Source of the DNA: a virus | Reading direction: 5' to 3' (one strand) | IMG/VR virus record: IMGVR_UViG_3300042384_000091 | Coordinates: 1 to 24,645 of that record | Length of the DNA stretch: 24,645 bases | In this document: positions 8,807-23,105 of the stretch, piece after piece | Numbering within the stretch: the first letter of the stretch is position 1 | How the letters are laid out: each line of letters opens with the position of its first letter | Notes under the pieces: model-generated | Told to the model about the DNA's origin: nothing | The model's input: the letters and a program-made list of their open reading frames with translations, nothing else | The model's database searches: none | Program-made: the position numbers and the translations under genes

Positions 8807-8836
8807 CTTAATAAGTACAAATTGAAAAAGTTGGTT
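8807..8836 (-). promoter_or_regulatory. Putative phage late promoter element, copy 4 (before 115-aa/portal unit)
   Basis: On the minus strand: AACCAACTT, ten bases, TACTTATTAAG, then five bases to the ATG. The box spacing is the same as in three other virion-block gaps, and the second box is identical to the copy at 11331. It lies just after the terminator at 8841-8868, where a new promoter is needed. The function as a promoter is inferred. Confidence 0.55.
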
Positions 8837-8840
8837 AAAT

Positions 8841-8868
8841 AAAAAAGGGGGCTAATTAAAACCCCCTT
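8841..8868 (-). terminator. Rho-independent terminator after tail-tube gene
   Basis: The minus strand has AAGGGGG, a 10-nt loop, CCCCCTTTTTT: a perfect 7-bp stem with a U-tract, 20 nt after the 168-aa gene. It should end the tail-tube transcript and separate it from the portal unit. Confidence 0.88.
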
Positions 8869-8888
8869 CTAAATTCGTGTTTATCTTA

Positions 8889-9395
8889 TTAGATAATGTT
8901 TGGAATTTCAGCAGCCGCAACCTCGTAAGCAAGGTTTTCCGCTTCCGCTACAAAAGTAATTGAATACTTTGACCCGTCCGCTTTAGCAGTTCCAGAACCT
9001 TCAGCAACCGCAGTAAGTTGAGCCGTTGGAAAATACCAATACTTTCCGTTTGCGTCACCAACTACAAGCGCAAGGTCTCTTTGACCTTCACCAAGAATTT
9101 TGATTGCTTTAGATTTCGCAGCCTCACGTCGGTGAAAAATCAAAGTAACGGTCTGAGTGTAAAAAGACGAACCATTTACCAAGTCAATAGCCGCTTCCTC
9201 GGTGTACATTCCTGTGTTACGTCTGAACTCAAACTCAACAAACTGGTCAGTAAGTGTACCGAAGTCAGTTACAACATAAGCCGTTACGTCAACAGGCCCT
9301 ACTACGTTGTCTTGGTCATTAATATAAATCGAAGTTATCCCTCCGATATTTGAATCACATCCTTTAAGGATTGTTTCTAAAGTTGTACAAGCCAT
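8889..9395 (-). CDS. Probable major tail (tube) protein
   Basis: A 168-aa protein predicted to polymerise into the tail tube. It is beta-rich, with a central helix (HRREAAKSKAIKILGEG, about residues 88-104) and a C-terminal segment (GKYWYFPTAQLTAVAEGSGT, then DGSKYSITFVAEAENLAYEV) that has the style of tail-tube proteins in Bacteroidota siphophages. It is a single-gene unit bounded by strong terminators on both sides, consistent with a protein made in large amounts. A head-decoration protein is the main alternative, because it directly follows the capsid gene. The start was chosen as the only ATG after the terminator that gives a full ORF. Confidence 0.7.
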   Translation of the reverse strand: MACTTLETILKGCDSNIGGITSIYINDQDNVVGPVDVTAYVVTDFGTLTDQFVEFEFRRNTGMYTEEAAIDLVNGSSFYTQTVTLIFHRREAAKSKAIKILGEGQRDLALVVGDANGKYWYFPTAQLTAVAEGSGTAKADGSKYSITFVAEAENLAYEVAAAEIPNII

Positions 9396-9404
9396 ATTAT
9401 TTAG

Positions 9405-9433
9405 TTTTAAAGGTATATAAAAAGGGGGCGGTT
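9405..9433 (-). promoter_or_regulatory. Degenerate copy of the late element before tail-tube gene
   Basis: The minus strand has AACCGCCCC, nine bases, TACCTTTAAAA, then nine bases to the ATG. It keeps AACC and TAC-TTTAA but has spacing one base shorter than the other copies, and its first box overlaps the terminator hairpin. It is a weak call, made because this gene lies after a terminator and needs a promoter. Confidence 0.3.
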
Positions 9434-9441
9434 AAACCCCC
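9419..9441 (-). terminator. Rho-independent terminator after major capsid gene
   Basis: The minus strand has GGGGG, an 8-nt loop (TTTAACCG), CCCCC and TTTTT, starting 9 nt after the capsid stop codon. The all-GC 5-bp stem plus U-tract should end most capsid transcripts. Confidence 0.82.
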
Positions 9442-9449
9442 GTTATTAT

Positions 9450-10388
9450 TTAGCAATATTGTGCTCCTCCGTACCAAACAACTTGTGGCGTGTTAACAAC
9501 ATAGAAACCTGCTTTGAAGTCAGCACGTGCGCCAATTCGACGGTCAAGTGTAGTTTTGCTGAAGTCAACGATTTGTAGGTTATCTTGGTCACCTTCTGCA
9601 TCCAATGCGTAGATGAAGTTTGTATAATCAGACAAGATGATAGTTGAAGCAGGAAGACCGTACTCGACAACAACTGCAATATCCAAGTAAGTCAAAGCCA
9701 AACCAGTAGTTACGTTTGTTGTAGTGTTGTTTGCAGCAGTAGCAATACGATAAGCAGCAGCCACGTTAGGCGCTACTTTGAATTGCATTTGAGCAGGGTT
9801 AACCAACATCTCAGCAGTTGCAGCTGTCAAAGTTGCAGCCATTTTGTCAAGTACGTTAGCCGAAGTAATAGCAGCGTAAGTTCCTGCAGGAGTAATGAAG
9901 TCGTTAGCAGTACACAAACGCAACAACCAACCATCACACAAAGTCAATGCAGGAGTAGCACTTGCCGTGTCACCTTTCCACATCAATTGTGCAAGTTCTT
10001 GATGACCTTTCTTCGCCATTTGTGAATAAAAGAAATTCATAAAAGACGCAACGCTGAAATCAGAGTTTGAACCTTTAGCCATTTCCAATGCAAGGAAAGA
10101 TTGCTCAAGGTCGAACTGACAAACAGACGCTTGAGAAGTCAAAGCACAAACATCGATTTCTACTGCGCTTAGGTCAGCATCTTGAGCTGAAAAGTTACAT
10201 CCGCTTTCTGCAAGTACTTCAGAAAACACAACCGTCGCAATTTTCGTTTTGTTTTTAATACCCGGTAACACTCGGTAGTTGGTTACTGCGTTTTCCATTC
10301 CGTAAAGAATAGAAAAATATTCACTTGGGTTTGCTTGCAATAGAGCCGATGCGTCTACCGTCAAGTCGAATTTTAATTTTTTAGCCAT
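9450..10388 (-). CDS. Major capsid protein
   Basis: A 312-aa protein that would form the icosahedral head shell. It directly follows a protease/scaffold gene (3-nt gap), which is the standard arrangement for HK97-fold capsids. Its length is in the normal range, and its sequence is mixed alpha/beta, rich in Ala and Thr, with no membrane or coiled-coil parts. A long helix is likely at about residues 95-135 (DLEQSFLALEMAKGSNSDFS onward), as the spine helix, and the C-terminal strand (FKAGFYVVNTPQVVWYGG) resembles capsid P-domain endings. No N-terminal delta domain rich in coiled coil is seen; the scaffold function is instead in the upstream gene. It is the last gene of its unit, before a strong terminator. 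Confidence 0.8.
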   Translation of the reverse strand: MAKKLKFDLTVDASALLQANPSEYFSILYGMENAVTNYRVLPGIKNKTKIATVVFSEVLAESGCNFSAQDADLSAVEIDVCALTSQASVCQFDLEQSFLALEMAKGSNSDFSVASFMNFFYSQMAKKGHQELAQLMWKGDTASATPALTLCDGWLLRLCTANDFITPAGTYAAITSANVLDKMAATLTAATAEMLVNPAQMQFKVAPNVAAAYRIATAANNTTTNVTTGLALTYLDIAVVVEYGLPASTIILSDYTNFIYALDAEGDQDNLQIVDFSKTTLDRRIGARADFKAGFYVVNTPQVVWYGGAQYC

Positions 10389-10391
10389 TTC

Positions 10392-11327
10392 TTATTTTTT
10401 TAAGAAGTTAATTACATTACTGAATTTTTGCGCTGTTGACATTTCGATTTCTTCAACGGAGGCGACTTCTTCCGTTTCAGTTAATTCGTTTTTGAGGTCT
10501 GCAATGACTTGCAAAATTTCGCTTACACGCTGCTCTAAAACAGGGTTAACAATTGCAAGAATAGCCTCCGCATCTGCCGCAGGGTCAATAGCCGCCTCAA
10601 CTTCAACAACCTCTTCAGGTGTTTCTGTCTCCGTTGCCATCTCCACCTCCGTAGACGCTTCAACTTCCATCGCTACTTCCTCGGCTTGTGGCTCTTGAAC
10701 TTCTACGACTACACCGTCTTTTACAACGATTACCGTACCATCTTCGAGCGTGTGTTTTCCGTCTGGTAACATATATGTTTGTTTTTGATTACTTAGTTTA
10801 AGACCTAAAAAGCCTTCAATAGAAAAGCCGACTTGACCCGCTTCGACTAACTTATTGTAGTACTCCGTGTCGGTTACTTGCGCAGTCATCATTAGCGTAC
10901 CTTTAGGGACTGAAATACCAAACGTACTCATTGCCTTGTCCGCTTCGGGATTGTCAACTAGCCACGCTTCAAGAATATAGGCAGGAACTAATTTGTCTCC
11001 TTCGTGTTCGAGGTTAAATAGATTTTGGTTGTTTAAATTCAACATGAACTCTTTGAAGATAGTATCTATTTCGGTCTCGGTAAATTGAACGTAATACTCG
11101 CCCATGTCATCGTCGTTACGATAAATGTCCATAGGAATCATGGCGGGTGCAGTTATTCTATATTTCTTTTCGTCTGCGAAGTGGCTTTTAGCTTGGGACT
11201 TGAACGCAACACCCTTAACCAAAACGGCAGGGTTTGACGTGAACGCAATAGCATCTACACCTAGCGGTTGTTCGCCATCGTTATACGCTTCGTCTATTGT
11301 AATTTTGTAAGTCGGTAGTCCTTCCAT
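10392..11327 (-). CDS. XkdF-like prohead protease fused to a scaffold domain
   Basis: A 311-aa two-part protein. Residues 1-175 are an XkdF-like serine protease: FNLEHEG around His108, the conserved stretch AYILEAWLVDNPEADKA (from 116) and GFSIEGF around Ser169, with Glu171 beside it. His108 and Ser169 are the expected catalytic residues. Residues about 205-275 are extremely acidic and low in complexity (many Glu, Val and Thr), and residues 245-311 form a helical segment ending NVINFLKK, like a capsid scaffold. In HK97-like systems, such a fusion drives shell assembly and then digests itself. It is the first gene of its unit, with a 30-bp late element ending 3 nt before the start, and lies 3 nt before the capsid gene. 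Confidence 0.85.
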   Translation of the reverse strand: MEGLPTYKITIDEAYNDGEQPLGVDAIAFTSNPAVLVKGVAFKSQAKSHFADEKKYRITAPAMIPMDIYRNDDDMGEYYVQFTETEIDTIFKEFMLNLNNQNLFNLEHEGDKLVPAYILEAWLVDNPEADKAMSTFGISVPKGTLMMTAQVTDTEYYNKLVEAGQVGFSIEGFLGLKLSNQKQTYMLPDGKHTLEDGTVIVVKDGVVVEVQEPQAEEVAMEVEASTEVEMATETETPEEVVEVEAAIDPAADAEAILAIVNPVLEQRVSEILQVIADLKNELTETEEVASVEEIEMSTAQKFSNVINFLKK

Positions 11328-11330
11328 TGA

Positions 11331-11360
11331 CTTAATAAGTACACTAAATCTCTTTTGGTT
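11331..11360 (-). promoter_or_regulatory. Putative phage late promoter element, copy 3 (before protease/capsid unit)
   Basis: On the minus strand: AACCAAAAG, ten bases, TACTTATTAAG, three bases, ATG. The first box is identical to the copy at 17244 and the second box to the copy at 8807. No good host TAnnTTTG box is found in this orientation in the gap. Confidence 0.6.
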
Positions 11361-11381
11361 AATTTTTCAACATTATTTTTA

Positions 11382-11389
11382 TACCTTTG
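11382..11389 (+). promoter_or_regulatory. Host-type -7 box for plus-strand tail-chaperone-like genes
   Basis: TACCTTTG on the plus strand fits TAnnTTTG exactly and ends 15 nt before the ATG at 11405. A TTTG (11354-11357) lies 24 bases upstream, slightly far for the -33 element. This is the only candidate promoter for the two plus-strand genes. Confidence 0.55.
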
Positions 11390-11404
11390 GTTAAAATCTA
11401 AGCA

Positions 11405-11953
11405 ATGATACAAATGTTCGGGGTCGAAATACCCAACCACCTAAACGAGTTAACCGTCCAGCAGTTTGACGAACTCAACAAAATTGAGAATAACCAAGAA
11501 CTAGACACCATTGAAAAGTGGATTGAAAAGTTTATCTATTTAGGAGTGCCAGAAAAGGCGTTTGACAAAATGGAACTTGACGAGTTTACAAATTATATCA
11601 AAGAGTTTAACAAGTCCGAAATTCCGCAAGGTGAAAAAGTGACCGAGTTAGTCATTGACAAATATACATACCAAGCAAACGAGACCATCTGGGTGAAAGA
11701 CTTGGGGCTAATTGAGAAAATATACCGAGGACAAGACGATAATTTCTGCGCTCAAACGTTAGCTATACTTTTCAAACGTACTGACCTTACCCGTACCGAA
11801 CACTACGCACCTGCTCATCTTAAAGTGAAGGTAGCTTTAATGAAGAAACAAAACGCAGAAGTTGCCTTCCCGTACATTATGGAAATTCTGCAAAAGATAG
11901 CCGTTATTTCGGAAAATAAACTCGAAGAGGCTAACGAAGAAGTAACGGAATAA
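11405..11953 (+). CDS. Tail assembly chaperone-like protein, paralogue A
   Basis: A 182-aa acidic helical protein, one of only two plus-strand genes in the window. Residues about 10-26 (PNHLNELTVQQFDELNK) align with the start of the next gene (PRNWNEVTVNQWLELNT), and both carry a later FxxxLxILxKR-like segment (here CAQTLAILFKR), so the two are distant paralogues. The pattern resembles small proteins in Bacteroidota phages thought to be tail assembly chaperones, which bind the tape measure. The C-terminus is acidic (EEANEEVTE). Only 2 nt separate it from the next gene. No slippery heptamer is seen near the junction, so the usual programmed frameshift between chaperone parts is not supported here. 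The function is inferred; the gene itself is sure. Confidence 0.7.
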   Translation: MIQMFGVEIPNHLNELTVQQFDELNKIENNQELDTIEKWIEKFIYLGVPEKAFDKMELDEFTNYIKEFNKSEIPQGEKVTELVIDKYTYQANETIWVKDLGLIEKIYRGQDDNFCAQTLAILFKRTDLTRTEHYAPAHLKVKVALMKKQNAEVAFPYIMEILQKIAVISENKLEEANEEVTE

Positions 11954-11955
11954 AG

Positions 11956-12690
11956 GTGAATTTACCACGAAATTGGAACGAAGTAACGGTTAACCAATGG
12001 TTAGAACTTAACACCATTGACGAACTCGAATATAACTCCGTGTTCCTGCAAACAATAGAGGCACTTTCCATACTTTCCGATACAGACCCCGAAGAGTTTG
12101 AAGACCTCGACCCCGAAGAACTAATTGACCTAGCACGGAAGGTTAGTTTTATTCAGCGTGAGCCATCCAATAAGCCAAAAGAACTGGTAAAAGGCTTAAA
12201 GTTAAAGCCGTTGGGTGCGCTTACGTTAGGGGAGTTCATTGACCTCGAACATTATGCTGTGCAATTTGTACAAAATTTCGATATTTTGCTTAGTATATTA
12301 TACAAAAGATTTAAATCGGACGAGTGGGGCAACCTAATTTTTGAGCCCTATTCGTATAGTATAATGAGCCGCAAAGAACTATTTCACGAAGTAAGTATAA
12401 ACGAGGTTTATGGCGCAGTAAAGAACTACATCGACTATTCAAACGACTTTAAGAAACGCTACGAGAATCTATTTAACCCAGTCATTGAGGAAGAGGAAAC
12501 CGAACTAGACGAAGACGACCTCAAAGCCGAAGCCGAAGAAAAGGTATTTAGTAAATGGTCGTGGGAAAAACTACTATACGACTTGTCGAATCAAGACCTA
12601 ACAAAAATAGACGCAGTTACTGACCTTAATTTAATCTTTGTGTTTAACATGCTGTCAATGGTCGAAGAGTTACAACTCAATAAGGATTAG
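11956..12690 (+). CDS. Tail assembly chaperone-like protein, paralogue B
   Basis: A 244-aa acidic helical protein starting with GTG, 2 nt after paralogue A. The N-terminus repeats the NE(V/L)TVxQ(W/F)xELN pattern, and the middle has FDILLSILYKRF. The C-terminal part (KWSWEKLLYDLSNQDLTKID, about residues 201-220) is like the W-rich helical region seen in tail-chaperone-like proteins of related phages. A very acidic linker (EEEETELDEDDLKAEAEEK) precedes it and is absent from paralogue A. Its stop codon lies one base from the stop of the convergent gene at 12692, leaving no room for a terminator between them. GTG is the only sensible start; the frame is closed by TAA at 11932. Confidence 0.68.
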   Translation: MNLPRNWNEVTVNQWLELNTIDELEYNSVFLQTIEALSILSDTDPEEFEDLDPEELIDLARKVSFIQREPSNKPKELVKGLKLKPLGALTLGEFIDLEHYAVQFVQNFDILLSILYKRFKSDEWGNLIFEPYSYSIMSRKELFHEVSINEVYGAVKNYIDYSNDFKKRYENLFNPVIEEEETELDEDDLKAEAEEKVFSKWSWEKLLYDLSNQDLTKIDAVTDLNLIFVFNMLSMVEELQLNKD

Positions 12691-12691
12691 T

Positions 12692-13168
12692 TTACCAGTT
12701 CCACCAATTTTTATCGTACTCGTATTTACCGTCCCAATTCTTAATACCATCCGAACCGAATAGATTGTAAGTAATGTTTAGCTTTACGTTGTCAGGTGTT
12801 ACGTTTATCGTAGCCACATCTAAGATAGGATAGTTGGCTTGCATCCAAACTAAGTACTCACCTATTGCATCAGAAATAAATTGTTGACCTAGTGGTGAAT
12901 CAATTGCTTTTTGTGTTATGAAGTAAGGACGAATCTCGCCCCCGTTGGTTAGCTTTGCACCTTTATCCAAAAACATGTAATAAAAGATGGCATTGATTGT
13001 AACGTAAAGTTGGTTAAGGTCACCCGTTGCCGCTGAAATTCTAATTGAGTCGTGCATCGTTCCCGTTCCCTCACCGCTCTCATTAAAACTGATTTGAGTA
13101 ATGGTTTGTTGTATAGCCTTTTGTAGCTTAAAACGGGTTTTGTACTTTATCTTGAATGAGCCTTCCAT
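12692..13168 (-). CDS. HK97 gp10-like head-tail/tail completion protein (tentative)
   Basis: A 158-aa protein. The middle segment TGTMHDSIRISA (from about residue 37) followed by FYYMFLDKGAKLTNGG and IRPYFITQKAID recalls the HK97 gp10 pattern: a 'G-x-L-x-x-S-I' strand, then a strand ending in a Gly-containing turn, then RPF-like and a helix. Such proteins complete the tail or neck. The C-terminus is short and aromatic (YDKNWWNW). A 30-bp late element ends 3 nt before its start, and it is alone in its unit. It is transcribed toward the plus-strand chaperone-like genes and ends one base from the last of them. The function is tentative. Confidence 0.6.
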   Translation of the reverse strand: MEGSFKIKYKTRFKLQKAIQQTITQISFNESGEGTGTMHDSIRISAATGDLNQLYVTINAIFYYMFLDKGAKLTNGGEIRPYFITQKAIDSPLGQQFISDAIGEYLVWMQANYPILDVATINVTPDNVKLNITYNLFGSDGIKNWDGKYEYDKNWWNW

Positions 13169-13171
13169 AAT

Positions 13172-13200
13172 CTTTAAAGTAGTGTGTTCGTGTTTTGGTT
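13172..13200 (-). promoter_or_regulatory. Putative phage late promoter element, copy 2 (before gp10-like gene)
   Basis: On the minus strand: AACCAAAAC, ten bases (ACGAACACAC), TACTTTAAAG, three bases, ATG. The spacer also resembles that of the copy at 17244 (ACGGACACAT), so these two share similarity over about 28 bp. The first box overlaps the stop codon of the 879-aa gene. Confidence 0.6.
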
Positions 13201-15838
13201 AAATGATAAGCCAATTAGACCCGTCACTTGCTACAGTTAACACATCGTATTGATTTAAAGTAATACTTGAAGAACCATCTATTGTTTCGCTTCCGTCAGG
13301 TTTTATCGTTTGACTTCCCGATGAAATAGATTTGATTATGAATACTTGACCTAATAAATTTACTGACGAAGGCAAAGTAATTACATAACTTCCCGCACTC
13401 ACGTTCATTAAATAATCGTTAGTTGTAATGAAGTAGTTTGAATCAATTGGTGTATAATTATATACCACACCACCCGACAAGTTTAACGCTCGGATATTTG
13501 CCACGTCCGCAGCTATTCGCTCAGTACTTATTCCAGTTTGGTCGAGCATCTTATTGTTACCTACAATGATTCCGTTTACACCCGGTTGGATGACGTTACC
13601 TTGTCCGTAGATGGCACTGACTGACGTACCGGGTACTACGTTACCAACGAAACTATTGTCCCAATGAATACTGCCCGTATGACTTGACAAGTCGCCTACG
13701 GTTGTAGGGGTCACGTTACCTTTTTTAAACGGGGCTAAATCTATTTCAGTGTCCGCACTCATTAACTCGACTTTAGTCAAGTTTTGAGCGTTGCAGTCGT
13801 AATCAATTACTTTGTTAATTGTCCACCAACTATTGTCTATTCGTATTTTCGAGTTTAATTTGAGGCTTTGGATATCGTCTTCCCGTAGGTTAAAGTAAGC
13901 CGTCAACATTTTACCTACGTTGATTTGGTTAACGGTTCGTCGCCAGTACAAATTGTAAAGGTTGTTATTCGTTATGCTGTAACCTTCATAAAACATGTAG
14001 TCAGGTTGTGCGAATAAAATATCAAACGTCGGGTTTGTCGGGTTGTCCCAATGGTGGAAAATTGGGTAAGTCGTTACGTTGGTCTCGCCCGTAGTGCCAT
14101 AATTGTATAAATTGTAAGCGTCACAAACTCCCTCCCCTCCGTCTTGTAGTATTCGTATGTTTACTTTTGGCGCACCTGATAACAAAGGTAGGTAAGCGTT
14201 AAACGTGCTTTGTCCAATTGGCGTAGGTGAGAAGGTTATTTCTTTGGTGTCTATTCCCTTCACATACTCGTTGTCGAAGATAAATTCTAACTGCCCGTAG
14301 ATTTCTTTAGTAGCTTCAAAGTAGATTTTGTTCGGGTCGTCGCTGTCGTTTTTGTAAGTGAGTATTAATTTCTTCGCACTCAGCTCGGGCAAAAATTGTA
14401 ACGCTTGGTCTTTGTCCTTTGCTAATTTGTACGTCCAATCAATCTCCGCTCCTGCGTCGTAATAATCATCTCGGTGCATTAACACCAAATTGTTAGGCAC
14501 TTCGTTGTCTTGCTCGGTATAAAGGTTGTACATCGTAAAAATTGACTTAATGAAGTCCGCTTGTTTCACCTTATTTGGCACTGCGTTATTCATGTCAATC
14601 TGCGCACCATAGCCGAGAATATTTGACGAAGGTAGCACACGAACTTGTAGTGAAGTAAAATCTATTTCTAAACCTATTTGAGCGAACACACCGCCAACAG
14701 TCCAATAGTCCAAAGTAAACGAACCGCCTTTGATTGTAAATTCATCGGTAGTAATTACGTTACTTGCTAACATCGTATAAGTTCCCGTTAACGTTCCTAT
14801 TGAAGTATTGCCCACTGGGATAGTTGTTCCAAAAGGTACGCTTATTCCCGCAGGTGAACCGCTCGTTGTTGCGTATGGTGTTCCGTTTAGGTCAAGTTGA
14901 AAGTACGGCTTGTAAGATAGGTTATTCGATTGTAGGGTTGCCGTTCCTGCGTTGCCATTTGTAAGCGTTAAATCTGCGCTAAACGTAAACTCAAATACTA
15001 TGCTTTCACCGCCTTGTAAGTTCAACGGCACATCGTATGCACCCGTAGTTGGATTGAATAAACCGAAATTGTCTAAGGTCTCAGTCCACCCCGTAATTGG
15101 GTTAATAAAAACGGCAGGTGTTCCCGAATCAGTGAATGAAGTTTCCGCTTCAACTAAATAGTCATTGTAATCTACGAGCGAACCTTCCCCGTTAAATGGT
15201 ATTATGAGTTTGTCAAAGTGTGCTGCTGCTAACGTGTCCCATGTGTAGCTAAATCCTGCGTTGCTAAATATCCTATCAAAGTACGTCTTTGCATAAATAG
15301 CAGGCTTCATATCCTGCAATAGGTAGCTATTAGAATCCTTAAAGGGTAGGAGGTATTTGTACCCATCCCCTTGCGTGTGTGCGTAAGACGCTATTACATT
15401 GTCTGCCCGGTACTCGTGGTTAAGGTCGCTAAAGTCAAGGTTAGTAAGTTCGTTATTTCCTAGCCTAGTAAAGAATTCAGAACTTTCGTCTTTTATTAGC
15501 ACCTCGTATTCGACCTCGTTTTCGTAGTCAGCTGTGAGTTGGGTTTTATTAACAGCAATAAGTTGAAGGTAACCCGCTTCGAGTACTGGTATTCCGTTTT
15601 GAATAATCGAACATCGAGTGAGCGTGTTTATGTTGAAAGTCCCCGCTTGGATATTTACATCGTAGTAATGGTTGAGTAAGTTGTGATTATTATCCGTACC
15701 CGTCAGTGTGATTGTCTTACTAAACGCACCCGACTTTTTACTCACGTCACGAATATCAGCTACACCAAAGTTAAGGGGAAATGCCGTGCCATCCTTTACG
15801 TCTAGGTAGCCCGTCTCAAGTTGTATTCTTACGCTCAT
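13199..15838 (-). CDS. Large tail tip/baseplate-type structural protein
   Basis: An 879-aa virion protein. The N-terminal region (LNFGVADIRDVSKKSGAFSK, residues 23-42, then TITLTGTDNNH) is a pattern I recognise from large tail proteins of Bacteroidota siphophages, probably forming the distal tail or baseplate. The middle (about 100-690) is beta-rich with many aromatic residues. The last 110 residues (YVITLPSSVNLLGQVFII, SGSQTIKPDGSETIDGSSSI, VASDGSNWLII) match a small beta module often found at the ends of fibre-like proteins, so the tip may carry a surface-exposed domain. It overlaps the 468-aa gene by 4 nt. No peptidase or lysozyme motif was noticed. Confidence 0.75.
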   Translation of the reverse strand: MSVRIQLETGYLDVKDGTAFPLNFGVADIRDVSKKSGAFSKTITLTGTDNNHNLLNHYYDVNIQAGTFNINTLTRCSIIQNGIPVLEAGYLQLIAVNKTQLTADYENEVEYEVLIKDESSEFFTRLGNNELTNLDFSDLNHEYRADNVIASYAHTQGDGYKYLLPFKDSNSYLLQDMKPAIYAKTYFDRIFSNAGFSYTWDTLAAAHFDKLIIPFNGEGSLVDYNDYLVEAETSFTDSGTPAVFINPITGWTETLDNFGLFNPTTGAYDVPLNLQGGESIVFEFTFSADLTLTNGNAGTATLQSNNLSYKPYFQLDLNGTPYATTSGSPAGISVPFGTTIPVGNTSIGTLTGTYTMLASNVITTDEFTIKGGSFTLDYWTVGGVFAQIGLEIDFTSLQVRVLPSSNILGYGAQIDMNNAVPNKVKQADFIKSIFTMYNLYTEQDNEVPNNLVLMHRDDYYDAGAEIDWTYKLAKDKDQALQFLPELSAKKLILTYKNDSDDPNKIYFEATKEIYGQLEFIFDNEYVKGIDTKEITFSPTPIGQSTFNAYLPLLSGAPKVNIRILQDGGEGVCDAYNLYNYGTTGETNVTTYPIFHHWDNPTNPTFDILFAQPDYMFYEGYSITNNNLYNLYWRRTVNQINVGKMLTAYFNLREDDIQSLKLNSKIRIDNSWWTINKVIDYDCNAQNLTKVELMSADTEIDLAPFKKGNVTPTTVGDLSSHTGSIHWDNSFVGNVVPGTSVSAIYGQGNVIQPGVNGIIVGNNKMLDQTGISTERIAADVANIRALNLSGGVVYNYTPIDSNYFITTNDYLMNVSAGSYVITLPSSVNLLGQVFIIKSISSGSQTIKPDGSETIDGSSSITLNQYDVLTVASDGSNWLII

Positions 15839-17241
15839 ATATTTACCTTGTCTTGGTTGGCCAACTTAATTGTTACCGTCTTTTTAAATAGGTTCTTGTT
15901 GCGCTTCTTTTCGACCTCAAACGTTGAGTCCATAACCTGACAAGCAAGGTACTCACTCCCGTTGTAAAAGTAAACCGAAGGCGAAGTAATCAACTCTTGA
16001 AAATAGATAGCCATTTCCTCGCTCATCCAGTTCGTGTTTAGGGTGAACATTTTATCCACCGTACTTGAGTAGGTAGTTAGCCCCGCTTCCGTGTTTCCGT
16101 AAGTCCACTCCGTACCACTTACAAACCCTTCAACAACTTTATTAAACGACTGCTTAACTGCCGTGCCATTCTCGGTAAATCGAAGTTGAAAAGCAAACGA
16201 ACCCCAAGACCCCATCCTATCCAAGAACACTAAATGAAAGTCATTAATAGCACATCGTTGGTCAATGGTAAAAGTGTACGTCGTTGAGTCAGTCGGTGCA
16301 GACGCATCAATAAAATAAACCTCGTAGTATGTAGTGTCGGATTTAATAAGTGGCGCAGTCCCACTAATAACTGTTAGGTTAAGGCTCGGGCTTGCCACGC
16401 ATAATTGAGTAGTTATTTCGGTGTTGTTTACTGCGTAGTTAAATGTGTCTCCGTTTGAGTTAGAAAAGACCATGCGCCCCGTCACCCCATTGTTAAATCC
16501 GTTGAACCAAATTTCTTGCGTTGGTGTTATGGTTATTCCCGAAGTAGGAAAAGACGTAAGGAACAAAGCGTTTACATCGTCTAGTAAATAGGTGTTTAAG
16601 TCGTAGCCATTAAACTGCGCCCATGGTAAAGCCCCGTTAAATACATACTTGTTTAGTTCCTGCTCAATGTCACGTGTAACCGTCTTTCGCTTGTCCGCAT
16701 AAGTCACCGTGCCGTCAGCTGTTGCGTCCGTTACGTTCGACCACAAAGCCGAAATTGTAAAGTCAGTCGTTCCCGTAATTGCGAGAACCGTCCAAAGTCC
16801 AGTAATCAATAAATTCGTTCCTGCGTCCACTACTACTTGGTCGCCTACCTGAAACGTGTGAGCCGTGGTTGGTGTTATCTTCACGTTGCCCCCGTTGTCT
16901 ACGAGTGAGGCGGTGTAACTATAAGTGACTATGTACTCTTCCCCTACTTGAACATCGTATTTGTATCTAGTGTTTGGGGTGTCAATTTCAGAATAGTTAG
17001 TCGGGTCAAAATCGATTAAGACCTTTGAACTTAACAACTTGCTTAGGTCAACTTCCCCGTAGCCCGTGCCGAAGGTTGGCAGTACCCGGTACTCGGCTAT
17101 CTTATTCGCCGTGCCACTTTCGTAAACGTCGAAGATATATCGAAACCCCTCGAGGTTTTTGTTCGTTGAGTCAAAGATAAACTTGCAAGGGTTGTACGCT
17201 GGTGTGAAGTCTTGCGGTGCTGCTATTAGTGTCATTGCCAT
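15835..17241 (-). CDS. Tail structural protein (distal tail-like), function not precisely known
   Basis: A 468-aa beta-rich protein, the first gene of the virion block after the terminase. It starts MAMTLIAAPQDFTPAYNPCK, with ATG at 17241; a second ATG two codons later is possible. A segment at about residues 100-180 (HTFQVGDQVVVDAGTNLLIT, TVLAITGTTDFTISA) looks like an inserted beta-barrel module. DRMGSWGSFAFQLRFTENG (about 333-351) and the basic C-terminus (KKRNKNLFKKTVTIKLANQ) are conserved-looking. Coupling to the 879-aa tail protein by a 4-nt overlap suggests that the two assemble together at the tail tip. A 30-bp late element ends 2 nt before the start. Confidence 0.68.
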   Translation of the reverse strand: MAMTLIAAPQDFTPAYNPCKFIFDSTNKNLEGFRYIFDVYESGTANKIAEYRVLPTFGTGYGEVDLSKLLSSKVLIDFDPTNYSEIDTPNTRYKYDVQVGEEYIVTYSYTASLVDNGGNVKITPTTAHTFQVGDQVVVDAGTNLLITGLWTVLAITGTTDFTISALWSNVTDATADGTVTYADKRKTVTRDIEQELNKYVFNGALPWAQFNGYDLNTYLLDDVNALFLTSFPTSGITITPTQEIWFNGFNNGVTGRMVFSNSNGDTFNYAVNNTEITTQLCVASPSLNLTVISGTAPLIKSDTTYYEVYFIDASAPTDSTTYTFTIDQRCAINDFHLVFLDRMGSWGSFAFQLRFTENGTAVKQSFNKVVEGFVSGTEWTYGNTEAGLTTYSSTVDKMFTLNTNWMSEEMAIYFQELITSPSVYFYNGSEYLACQVMDSTFEVEKKRNKNLFKKTVTIKLANQDKVNI

Positions 17242-17243
17242 AA

Positions 17244-17273
17244 CTTAAAAAGTAATGTGTCCGTCTTTTGGTT
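17244..17273 (-). promoter_or_regulatory. Putative phage late promoter element, copy 1 (start of virion block)
   Basis: On the minus strand: AACCAAAAG, ten bases (ACGGACACAT), TACTTTTTAAG, two bases, ATG. The first box overlaps the terminase stop codon. With only 2 nt between the second box and the ATG, a transcript starting after this box would be almost leaderless, or the element acts in another way. Confidence 0.6.
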
Positions 17274-18423
17274 AGAACGCCACATACCCATCGTCGGTGT
17301 AGTACATCTCCTTAATGTAGGTCGTCGCATACCTCACAGCGTCCATGGCATCGTCGTAAAGTTTGATTGGCTCGTCTAGAATCATGTCCCCTACTTTCTT
17401 CCACTTGTAGTTTTCGTATTCCTTTTTGAGGGTTGGTTCTTCCTGACAAAAGACCCCGAAGGTCTTGACGTAGTTAATACCCATCTTTACCGACTTGTTG
17501 GCGTTGTTCACGTTGTAACCTGCGTTTTGCATTTCGGCAATTATTTCGGGTCGTGAGTAATCCGCCATTATGTCAACCGTCTTTTCAATGTCTAGGTCTT
17601 TGAACTTTTGGATGAGTTCGGAAGTGGTTAGGTAGCTTTGATAAATCACGGGTTCGATATAGATGTCCCCGTCAGACCAATAGACCCTCACTAAGGCCGT
17701 CGGGTGATTATACCCGAAGTCCAAGCCGTAGACGAAACTAGTAAACCTCGCAGGTCTCGACTTAGTAAACGTCCAGTTGTTATAGATGTTTGATTTGCTT
17801 ATTGCCTTCTCACCTAACGCATAAATTTGGTAAAGGCTTTCATCCGTCCGCTTCAGGTCTTCAATTTGTCGCTTAATGCTTTCAGGCAGGAACGGGTTGT
17901 CCCGGTACGTCGACTTGATTAACTTACTTTCGTGAGGTGGTAACTCATAAAGCCATGAAGAACTTTCCGAAGGGTTGTAGTCGAAAATCAGTTTATCCTC
18001 GGTACGCATGTTCAGCTGTTGAAAGTCCTCAAACCATAACTCATTTGCTTCGTTGCACCAACCAATATCCCTCTTCCGTCCCCTAATCTTTTGCTCGTCG
18101 TCCACACTGAAGAACTCCACGATTGACCCGTTAGGAAAGCGGTATATATTCTCAGACATATTATGGTTCGTCTTTTCGTAAATGTCAAGGTCTTTAAGTA
18201 TCTCAAAGAAATCCCTCATCACAGTTGCCCTCAAAGCGGGGAAGGTCTTACGCACAATAGACACAACCTTGTTCGGATTTTGTATGCAGTACACAATAAC
18301 CATTTGACAAAGTGAGTAGGTCTTGCTTGAACGTGACCCGCCTTCGTTAATTATGAAACGCACCTCCGAGTTGGTAAGTGCGTCCCAATTACGAGCAAAG
18401 ATATTAGTTGCTTGAATCTCCAT
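17272..18423 (-). CDS. terL: Terminase large subunit
   Basis: A 383-aa packaging motor that pumps DNA into the head and cuts it. ATPase: Walker A GGSRSSKT (residues 28-35); Walker B DIGWCNEAN (119-127), with Glu125 as the catalytic acid; coupling-motif region FDYNPS (147-152). Nuclease (RNase H-like): first acid Asp235 in YGLDFGYNHP, second Asp288 in MADYSRPEI, third Asp361 in DDAMDAVRYA. Both domains are complete and the length is slightly short, typical of the PBSX/Terminase_3-like group. The start overlaps the small subunit by 20 nt. It is the last gene of the host-promoter-driven middle unit; the first late element overlaps its stop. Confidence 0.95.
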   Translation of the reverse strand: MEIQATNIFARNWDALTNSEVRFIINEGGSRSSKTYSLCQMVIVYCIQNPNKVVSIVRKTFPALRATVMRDFFEILKDLDIYEKTNHNMSENIYRFPNGSIVEFFSVDDEQKIRGRKRDIGWCNEANELWFEDFQQLNMRTEDKLIFDYNPSESSSWLYELPPHESKLIKSTYRDNPFLPESIKRQIEDLKRTDESLYQIYALGEKAISKSNIYNNWTFTKSRPARFTSFVYGLDFGYNHPTALVRVYWSDGDIYIEPVIYQSYLTTSELIQKFKDLDIEKTVDIMADYSRPEIIAEMQNAGYNVNNANKSVKMGINYVKTFGVFCQEEPTLKKEYENYKWKKVGDMILDEPIKLYDDAMDAVRYATTYIKEMYYTDDGYVAF

Positions 18424-18832
18424 TAACTATCCGTACAGTGACGGGTTGGTTCAACTTGTCGCCTCCAGTAGTCACGTCCGTTTTTTCGGTGAGGTTGTTT
18501 AGTCGTTGAGTGATTGACGTATTATATTGCCCGACCATTCCGCCCTCGATTTGGTCTTGACGGATTGACTTCTTTACACGTGAACAGATAGTCCCGTAGT
18601 CCGAATAACGCCCGTCCGTATTATCAAAATAATGGTGGCAGTCACTCGCAAACTCTAAGCACCAAAGTTCAAACCCTTCCATTGTAAGGGGTACTCTTAA
18701 CGTCTCTTGAACTATCTTACCGCTTTGTAGGGCTTTGTCTATTGTACGGGGGTTTGAGTGTACGTGTGTCTTGTATTCCGTGAATAACTCCCATAGTCGT
18801 TCTGGTGTCTCTATTCCTTTTGGCTTTCCCAT
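18404..18832 (-). CDS. terS: Terminase small subunit
   Basis: A 142-aa DNA-recognition subunit of the packaging motor. The N-terminus KGIETPERLWELFTEYKTHV (residues 5-24), the central LTMEGFELWCLEF (49-61) and the C-terminal GGMVGQYNTSITQRLNNLTEKTD (97-119) follow the conserved order of the gp3-like/DNA-packaging small terminase family, with an N-terminal helical DNA-binding region and a C-terminal segment that contacts the large subunit. It overlaps terL by 20 nt, the expected neighbour. Whether the phage packages by cos or pac cannot be told from this sequence. Confidence 0.88.
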   Translation of the reverse strand: MGKPKGIETPERLWELFTEYKTHVHSNPRTIDKALQSGKIVQETLRVPLTMEGFELWCLEFASDCHHYFDNTDGRYSDYGTICSRVKKSIRQDQIEGGMVGQYNTSITQRLNNLTEKTDVTTGGDKLNQPVTVRIVNGDSSN

Positions 18833-19188: not shown

Positions 19189-19424
19189 TTCTTTTTGCGT
19201 TTAGGTTTGACCTCTATACCTTCGTATGCAATGGTTGGTAGTTGTTCGGTTGGTAGTTCCGTGTTTTCGGTGACCTCATCAAAGTACTTACCCAAGTTAA
19301 TCCCCCATTTCTTAGCGGTCTCGATATCCTTTTCCGTCAACGCTTCAATTTTCTTCGTCACTCGGACAGTGCCTAGTAAGTATTCTACGCTTACCCCCTT
19401 ATATTGGTCTTTTATCTGCAACAT
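19185..19424 (-). CDS. Small basic-tailed protein, function unknown
   Basis: A 79-aa protein starting MLQIKDQYKGVSVEYLLGTV. The first half is beta-strand-like; then comes a helix (TEKDIETAKKWGINLGKYF, about residues 30-48) and a Pro-rich, basic tail (VKPKRKKK). No domain is recognised, though short proteins starting with a similar 'IKxQYKG' pattern occur before terminase genes in Bacteroidota phages and could be head-completion or regulatory proteins. It overlaps the end of the sigma-like gene by 26 nt and the next gene by 4 nt. Confidence 0.68.
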   Translation of the reverse strand: MLQIKDQYKGVSVEYLLGTVRVTKKIEALTEKDIETAKKWGINLGKYFDEVTENTELPTEQLPTIAYEGIEVKPKRKKK

Positions 19425-19902
19425 ATTTTTTAAATTTCGTCTTTATGTCATTTATGTAAATCAAAGCACTCGACGGGTCAATGTTAAAATGTTCCGCAAG
19501 GTCTCTCTTTGTCGTTTTGCCCTTGTTAAAATACACCTCAAAGATTATTTGGTCAGTTCTATTCAACGTATTAACAAAGTCGCTTACATCTATTTTAAGT
19601 ACTAATTGTTCGCTTTGGTTATTCGTGTCTGAAATGTCAAAGTCTAGGTCTACCGGGTTAAGTCGTTCCTTTAGGTTTGTTTGTGAGTTGGTTCGGATAA
19701 GTTCTAATAGGATAAACCCAAACGCAAGGCGTGGTATTTCGTCTTCCGTGATGGTGTCGGCTTTACCTACTACATACAAATAGGAAGAACTTACTAAACT
19801 TTCGGGTTCAATGTTTTTCTTCAGTTGCGTTATTCGTCTTTTCGCAGCTAAAACCAAGGTCTTGTAGTTCTCAGTATAGAATTTATCTATTGTAACTTTC
19901 AT
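19399..19902 (-). CDS. Sigma-70-like transcription factor, candidate late gene activator
   Basis: A 167-aa protein starting MKVTIDKFYTENYKTLVLAA. Residues about 10-70 are helical and recall a degenerate sigma region 2 (LVLAAKRRITQ, LAFGFILLELIR). Residues about 112-160 (FVNTLNRTDQIIFEVYFNKG, TTKRDLAEHFNIDPSSALIY) have the layout of sigma region 4: a leading helix, a short turn, then a helix-turn-helix with AEHFNID...ALIYI as recognition part. This would direct RNA polymerase to phage promoters. The frame stays open upstream to 20001, but that part lies over the 68-aa gene and is unlikely to be coding; the start at 19902 gives a 20-nt overlap. It sits just before the terminase genes, a normal place for a late regulator. 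The family call is from pattern; the sigma role is inferred. Confidence 0.62.
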   Translation of the reverse strand: MKVTIDKFYTENYKTLVLAAKRRITQLKKNIEPESLVSSSYLYVVGKADTITEDEIPRLAFGFILLELIRTNSQTNLKERLNPVDLDFDISDTNNQSEQLVLKIDVSDFVNTLNRTDQIIFEVYFNKGKTTKRDLAEHFNIDPSSALIYINDIKTKFKKYVADKRPI

Positions 19903-20345: not shown

Positions 20346-20353
20346 CAAAGATA
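20346..20353 (-). promoter_or_regulatory. Host-type promoter for the sigma-like/terminase operon
   Basis: The minus strand reads TATCTTTG, an exact TAnnTTTG box, with TTG about 18 bases upstream, a normal spacing for Bacteroidota -33/-7 promoters. It lies between the terminator at 20373-20401 and the membrane protein start, exactly where a new transcript must begin. Confidence 0.72.
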
Positions 20354-23097: not shown

Positions 23098-23105
23098 CAA
23101 ATATA
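23098..23105 (-). promoter_or_regulatory. Host-type promoter for the ERF/YqaJ operon
   Basis: The minus strand reads TATATTTG, an exact TAnnTTTG box, with a TTG 16 bases upstream. It lies in the 56-nt gap between the PD-(D/E)XK-like gene and erf, giving a short leader before the ERF ATG. Confidence 0.7.

Follow-up and report, generated by a model that had tools for sequence, protein, structure and literature searches.

The conserved two-box elements that precede the virion genes of the phage described here are, as judged from their sequence and its comparison across relatives, almost certainly late promoters, and we put at roughly 87% the probability that they are read by the host RNA polymerase together with a phage-encoded ECF-like sigma factor. 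The window, i.e. the whole stretch of 24,645 bases that was analysed, is an entire IMG/VR record, complete as a virus record; judged on its longest relatives it is probably a piece of a ~ 29-31 kb genome, and it belongs to an abundant group of uncultured phages, probably of Bacteroidota. Its minus strand carries genes for NinG, an Erf-like annealing protein, a small operon whose last gene encodes a 167-aa sigma-like protein, TerS, TerL, portal, tape measure and endolysin. The nearest TerL proteins in cultured phages, from Parabacteroides and Flavobacterium phages, are only ~ 33% identical. TerL served as the anchor gene for the comparison from clade to clade. The genes and elements on which the argument turns are the following.

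17272..18423 (-), TerL, terminase large subunit (phrog_2, E 1.3e-35)
18404..18832 (-), TerS, terminase small subunit (phrog_606, E 1.2e-10), 3' of element 5
19399..19902 (-), sigma-like protein, 167 aa (AF2 model; Foldseek/VIA matches mostly sigma factors; PHROG_351)
11405-12690 (+), two opposite-strand genes of 182 and 244 aa within the late block, kept in several clades
8807..8837 (-), element 1 (TAACCAACTTTTTCAATTTGTACTTATTAAG), with the ATG of a 115-aa gene (8801) 5 nt further on; predicted leader 4 nt
11331..11361 (-), element 2 (TAACCAAAAGAGATTTAGTGTACTTATTAAG), preceding a 311-aa gene; predicted leader 2 nt
13172..13201 (-), element 3 (TAACCAAAACACGAACACACTACTTTAAAG), overlapping the stop codon of an 879-aa gene and preceding a 158-aa gene; predicted leader 1 nt
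17244..17274 (-), element 4 (TAACCAAAAGACGGACACATTACTTTTTAAG), directly 3' of the TerL coding region, its TAA being the TerL stop codon, and preceding a 468-aa gene; predicted leader 1 nt
19597..19621 (-), element 5 (TAACCAAAGCGAACAATTAGTACTT, then AAAATAGATG), within the sigma-like gene and without a conserved start codon

An earlier note on this DNA had described four minus-strand copies ending 2-5 nt upstream of an ATG, and both their positions (AACCAA-N13-TACTT at 8836-8813, 11360-11337, 13200-13177 and 17273-17250) and this distance proved correct. The first box reads AACCAA in the window copies as the note had it, but some relatives have AACCAC or AACCAT at one of the sites. A pattern search revealed an exact fifth copy which the note had overlooked, at 19620-19597 on the same strand and within the sigma-like gene. 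Five copies in the window compare with 0.16 expected by chance, and none of 100 shuffles reached five. The invariant core is (T)AACC-N15-TACTT, and the bases 3' of TACTT are loosely A/T-rich. An extra TAACCAA is found just 5' of element 2 (11395-11375, minus strand), with no TACTT at the right distance.

The spacing between the two boxes was examined in 313 kb of sequence, made up of the window and 19 partly overlapping stretches of its close (clade A) relatives. TAACC-N15-TACTT has 75 matches in coding orientation (49 of them distinct) and three on the opposite strand, while each of the spacings N8-N14 and N16-N23 gives between zero and three coding-strand matches. A pattern with N14 in place of N15, which served as an accidental control, found none of the elements. 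Copies lie at orthologous places across relatives; indeed, there are six on the coding strand in each of two near-complete genomes, namely those of the four gaps, the one in the sigma gene and one ahead of an RNA described below. Copies at random positions inside genes would have spoken against a promoter, but within genes the motif recurs at a single place, the conserved site of the sigma gene, and this objection therefore fails.

In the proposed mechanism, TAACCAA would form a -35-type box at about -32 to -26 and TACTT would open a -10-type box, its T matching the T-12 of host promoters according to the promoters mapped in Flavobacterium johnsoniae (PMC6847099). Transcripts would then start 12 nt past the T of TACTT, that is 1, 1, 2 and 4 nt before the ATG in the window, and the predicted start-to-ATG distances are nearly equal in relatives. 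Given such distances, the late mRNAs would be almost leaderless, compared with predicted leaders of 13 and 19 nt for the host-type promoters of early genes in the window. The primary promoter of Bacteroidota, recognised by sigma-ABfr, has the boxes TTTG and TAHHTTTG, with T-12 and A-11, and 87% of the leaders predicted in F. johnsoniae exceed 10 nt (PMC6847099). The late elements resemble it by the TA at -12/-11 and by an upstream box near -33, but differ by AACC instead of TTTG, by TACTT instead of TAHHTTTG and by a predicted leader of 1-4 nt where host leaders mostly exceed 10; the sigma-ABfr boxes were thus not found in the late elements.

Host-type promoters are nevertheless present in the window. 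The earlier note held that the other units use TAnnTTTG boxes, which stands only in part since convincing boxes were seen at 23105, 20353 and +11382. The features concerned are these.

20346..20353 (-), host-type -7 box TATCTTTG, with TTG near -33 and a terminator upstream; it probably drives the small operon whose last gene is the sigma-like one
20402-20377 (-), intrinsic terminator just 5' of the 20353 promoter
8843..8870 (-), intrinsic terminator directly 5' of element 1, closing the preceding unit
11382 (+), host-type box TACCTTTG preceding the 182- and 244-aa opposite-strand genes

The 182-/244-aa pair lies between elements 2 and 3 and splits the late unit there. Given that these two elements flank the pair and that element 1 follows a terminator, several promoters are needed in the virion block. 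A further strong hairpin resembling a terminator (GGGGGTTTAACCGCCCCC TTTTT) is found at 9441-9424 on the minus strand, just before a 168-aa gene, and is not followed by a late element. The position of the sigma-gene unit, behind a host-type promoter that follows a terminator, is fitting for an early-to-late cascade. The sigma-like protein would probably be made early from the TAHHTTTG promoter at 20353 and, joined to the host core RNA polymerase, would read the boxes and turn on about six units, which are the terminase unit, four virion units and a structured non-coding RNA. The terminase unit would be switched on from within the sigma gene itself, with element 5 driving small genes, TerS and TerL. 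What the sequence itself shows are the elements, their fixed spacing and conservation, their co-divergence with the sigma-like protein and the host-type replacement described below; binding by this protein, the start sites and the late timing are inferred.

The copy inside the sigma gene provides a view of the constraint on the element which is separate from any start codon. Among 21 distinct sigma genes, the rate of synonymous difference is 0.025 in the two boxes, compared with 0.35 for the gene as a whole and 0.46 for the codons of the spacer, and 0.025 is the lowest value among 147 placements of the same two-block layout. The codons of low variation are 94-96 and 101-106 (AAT AAC CAA ... 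xTA CTT AAA ATA GAT GTA), and codon 101 ends in TA even when the residue is Val, Leu or Ile. Furthermore, the ATG found 3' of TACTT in element 5 is missing in three relatives (L013, L028 and L029) which retain the boxes. Synonymous freezing and loss of the ATG with the boxes kept both indicate that the constraint acts on the DNA and not on a start codon. Codons 19-23 (GCT GCG AAA AGA CGA, window ~ 19848-19834) are a second place, close to the 5' end of the gene, where synonymous sites vary little.

A further copy of the element occurs in several relatives 6-8 kb 5' of the sigma gene, where it is followed by an RNA instead of a gene. This RNA of ~ 95 nt is non-coding and conserved, with three mutually crossing helices (pseudoknot), and ends in a terminator-like T-run. 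In the alignment 95.7% of the pair cells are standard and eight pairs have changed on both sides, compared with 35-52% paired in slid controls; a search against Rfam gave no significant match. At the RNA's place, one relative (L027) has a different sequence of similar topology. All copies of the RNA lie outside the window, at the following places among others.

L106, 9555-9645 (+), RNA
L010, 3736-3826, RNA
L064, 3420-3510, RNA
L110, 8385-8475, RNA

In clade G, the RNA is preceded by that clade's own box type, and in four records (L110, L173, L174 and L175) what precedes it is a host-type TAHHTTTG box (TATATTTG or TAACTTTG). The RNA begins 13-19 nt past the T of TA (T-12) in late-element and host-type settings alike. 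No match to the sigma family was found in the whole records L110 (18.1 kb), L174 (34.4 kb) and L175 (36.6 kb) with a query which recovered the known copies, although this absence is not proof given that some of these records may be fragments. The host-type box in the same register represents a natural promoter replacement, and it is the strongest comparative evidence for a promoter role.

These observations bear on the possibility that the element is a translation-initiation signal, such as a Bacteroidota-type ribosome binding or re-initiation element, and not a promoter. Indeed, an ATG adjoins four of the five copies, and in two cases the element shares bases with the stop codon of the gene before it. 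However, conserved copies stand without a nearby start codon in the sigma gene and before the non-coding RNA, and the exact N15 spacing together with the terminator just 5' of element 1 is promoter-like. The presence of the same RNA behind a host-type box in the same register, in records without a sigma match, argues strongly for a promoter. In light of the non-coding copies and the promoter replacement we rejected a translation signal, which we consider very improbable.

The candidate for reading these promoters is the 167-aa protein. Its AF2 model, built from 31 sequences and with a mean pLDDT of 77, predicts sigma2-like helices within residues 2-70 (2-27, 33-46 and 53-70), a disordered linker (81-104) and a sigma4-like HTH (106-163). 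As predicted, this order of sigma2, linker and sigma4 without sigma3 would be that of an ECF factor. The best PDB structure matches are mostly sigma factors (SigR, SigL, SigW, RpoE, WhiG), with a few other HTH domains lower, but the VIA Z of 8-9 is within the range reachable by chance for helical models and no Foldseek E is below 0.001. At the sequence level, three of the 31 family members match PHROG_351, 'RNA polymerase sigma factor' (best E 1.2e-5). No Pfam sigma domain was found in the window protein or ten relatives, so that a match to sigma-70 region 2/4 profiles is limited to these three PHROG_351 hits; PHROGs gave no sigma family for the window protein itself at default cut-offs, and a PDB sequence search with the family profile returned no sigma chain. 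Likewise, a tblastn search of 50,697 phage records with four family members gave no match, hence neither a cultured host nor a transcriptome, and a scan of genome contigs found none. Each measure is modest alone, but given that fold, gene position and cognate boxes agree it is likely that the protein acts as a sigma factor.

The cognate boxes were examined by comparison between clades. Of 80 TerL relatives examined, almost every one whose flank was long enough has a family member just 5' of TerS. Between clades the sigma-like protein is 18-58% identical, compared with 75-84% for TerL between most clades compared. In the gap 3' of the TerL stop codon the boxes are particular to each clade and similarly arranged, as listed here; further clades exist.

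Clade A, TAACC..TACTT
Clade B, TAAACAA..ATACAATTAA
Clade C, AACACGAAT..TTTAATATAG
Clade E, AAACG..CAATATAA
Clade F, TAAACA..TGCAATATAAG
Clade G, AAACACGAA..TATTATAAG
Clade H, ..ACATTATAAGT
Clade J, TAAACA..TTAATATATA

Boxes were learned from this gap only and then sought at the other virion gene starts. For five of the seven clades the top scores came from genomes of the clade itself, at 0.93 of the maximum for A, 1.00 for C, 0.75 for F, 0.74 for G and 0.92 for H, with intragenic controls at 0.29-0.45; E and J did not pass. Clade F had failed a first test, probably because short contigs were included, and passed a repeat with longer contigs in which E and J failed again. Furthermore, the TerL of L028 is no nearer to that of clade A than are those of other clades, while its sigma-like protein (58% identical) belongs to the same sigma clade and A-type boxes are found at both visible places. 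Across relatives the boxes and the fast-evolving sigma-like protein change in step, suggestive of natural lock-and-key switch pairs.

Such co-divergence also bears on which factor reads the promoters. They could be read by a host alternative (ECF) sigma, or by the host primary sigma with a phage activator at the AACC box, the sigma-like protein being this activator or uninvolved; the TA retained at -12/-11 as in host promoters and the lack of a Pfam sigma family match both fit such a scheme. However, both boxes vary between clades and not the upstream one alone, a host sigma common to the clades would not account for their changing along with the phage gene, and the predicted fold has a sigma2-like domain besides the HTH. 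We therefore regard another factor of this kind as unlikely. Reading by an unseen single-subunit or multi-subunit phage RNA polymerase has a precedent in the compact two-block signals of own-polymerase phages (the AR9 late motif AACA-6N-TA/G, PMC5312081), but appears extremely improbable in genomes of only ~ 29-31 kb, with no polymerase gene recognised among the genes annotated and a sigma-like gene in nearly every locus with enough flank. Taken with the exact two-box spacing, the placement on the coding strand, the orthologous conservation, the DNA constraint in the sigma gene, the copy before the non-coding RNA, the host-type replacement and the terminator before element 1, the co-divergence of boxes and sigma-like protein bears out the phage-specific promoter class for virion genes that the earlier note had put forward.

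A phage-encoded sigma factor as reader of these promoters is not new in kind, since phage ECF-type late sigma factors are known. In phiEco32 and SU10, middle and late promoters depend on the phage ECF sigma gp36 and carry the motif tAATGTATAtA 6-8 nt before the start (PMC4281155). As in these phages, an ECF-type sigma of the phage would direct the host polymerase to its genes via a phage-specific motif, and the sigma gene itself is under a host-type promoter. However, SU10 belongs to the 77-kb enterobacterial podophages, for which only one extended -10 box has been described, while here there are two boxes at a fixed N15, no Pfam-level sigma similarity, an element within the sigma gene, almost no predicted leader and many clade-specific pairs. 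Bacterial ECF promoters have AAC in the -35 and CGT in the -10 (PMC4153023). The AAC core is shared by the upstream box of nearly all clades, and a two-domain sigma is predicted here as well, but the -10 box is TACTT, TAATATAG, TTATAAG or TGCAATATA, and never CGT in any clade seen, and AACC and TACTT are separated by 15 nt. The late promoters of AR9 also share a phage-specific motif with an AAC core (PMC5312081), although AR9 is a jumbo phage with its own multi-subunit polymerases and long leaders. No paper on the late promoters of the present phages was found, and the literature searched appears to contain no description of the sigma family, the exact two-box element, its co-diversification, the near-leaderless layout or the RNA.

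Little is known about the timing of late genes in Bacteroidota phages, and the present proposal gives a testable rule, comprising the sigma-like protein, the two boxes and the exact base of the start. It concerns a group that has hundreds of relatives in IMG/VR and whose proteins are not recognised by Pfam as sigma factors. From the comparison of sequences we consider it slightly better than an even chance that sigma and promoters have diversified jointly, far outpacing the rest of the phage (TerL ~ 80%, sigma 18-58%), into at least eight distinct, perhaps mutually orthogonal pairs, each giving late mRNAs almost without a leader and also driving, in at least two clades, a new double-pseudoknot RNA which is driven by a host promoter in other phages. 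Orthogonality, host change and exclusion are candidate reasons for the faster divergence of the sigma compared with TerL. The clade-specific pairs would constitute a natural set of possibly orthogonal switches for Bacteroidota, where tools are few, and near-leaderless late mRNAs would probe initiation by ribosomes which do not use Shine-Dalgarno signals.
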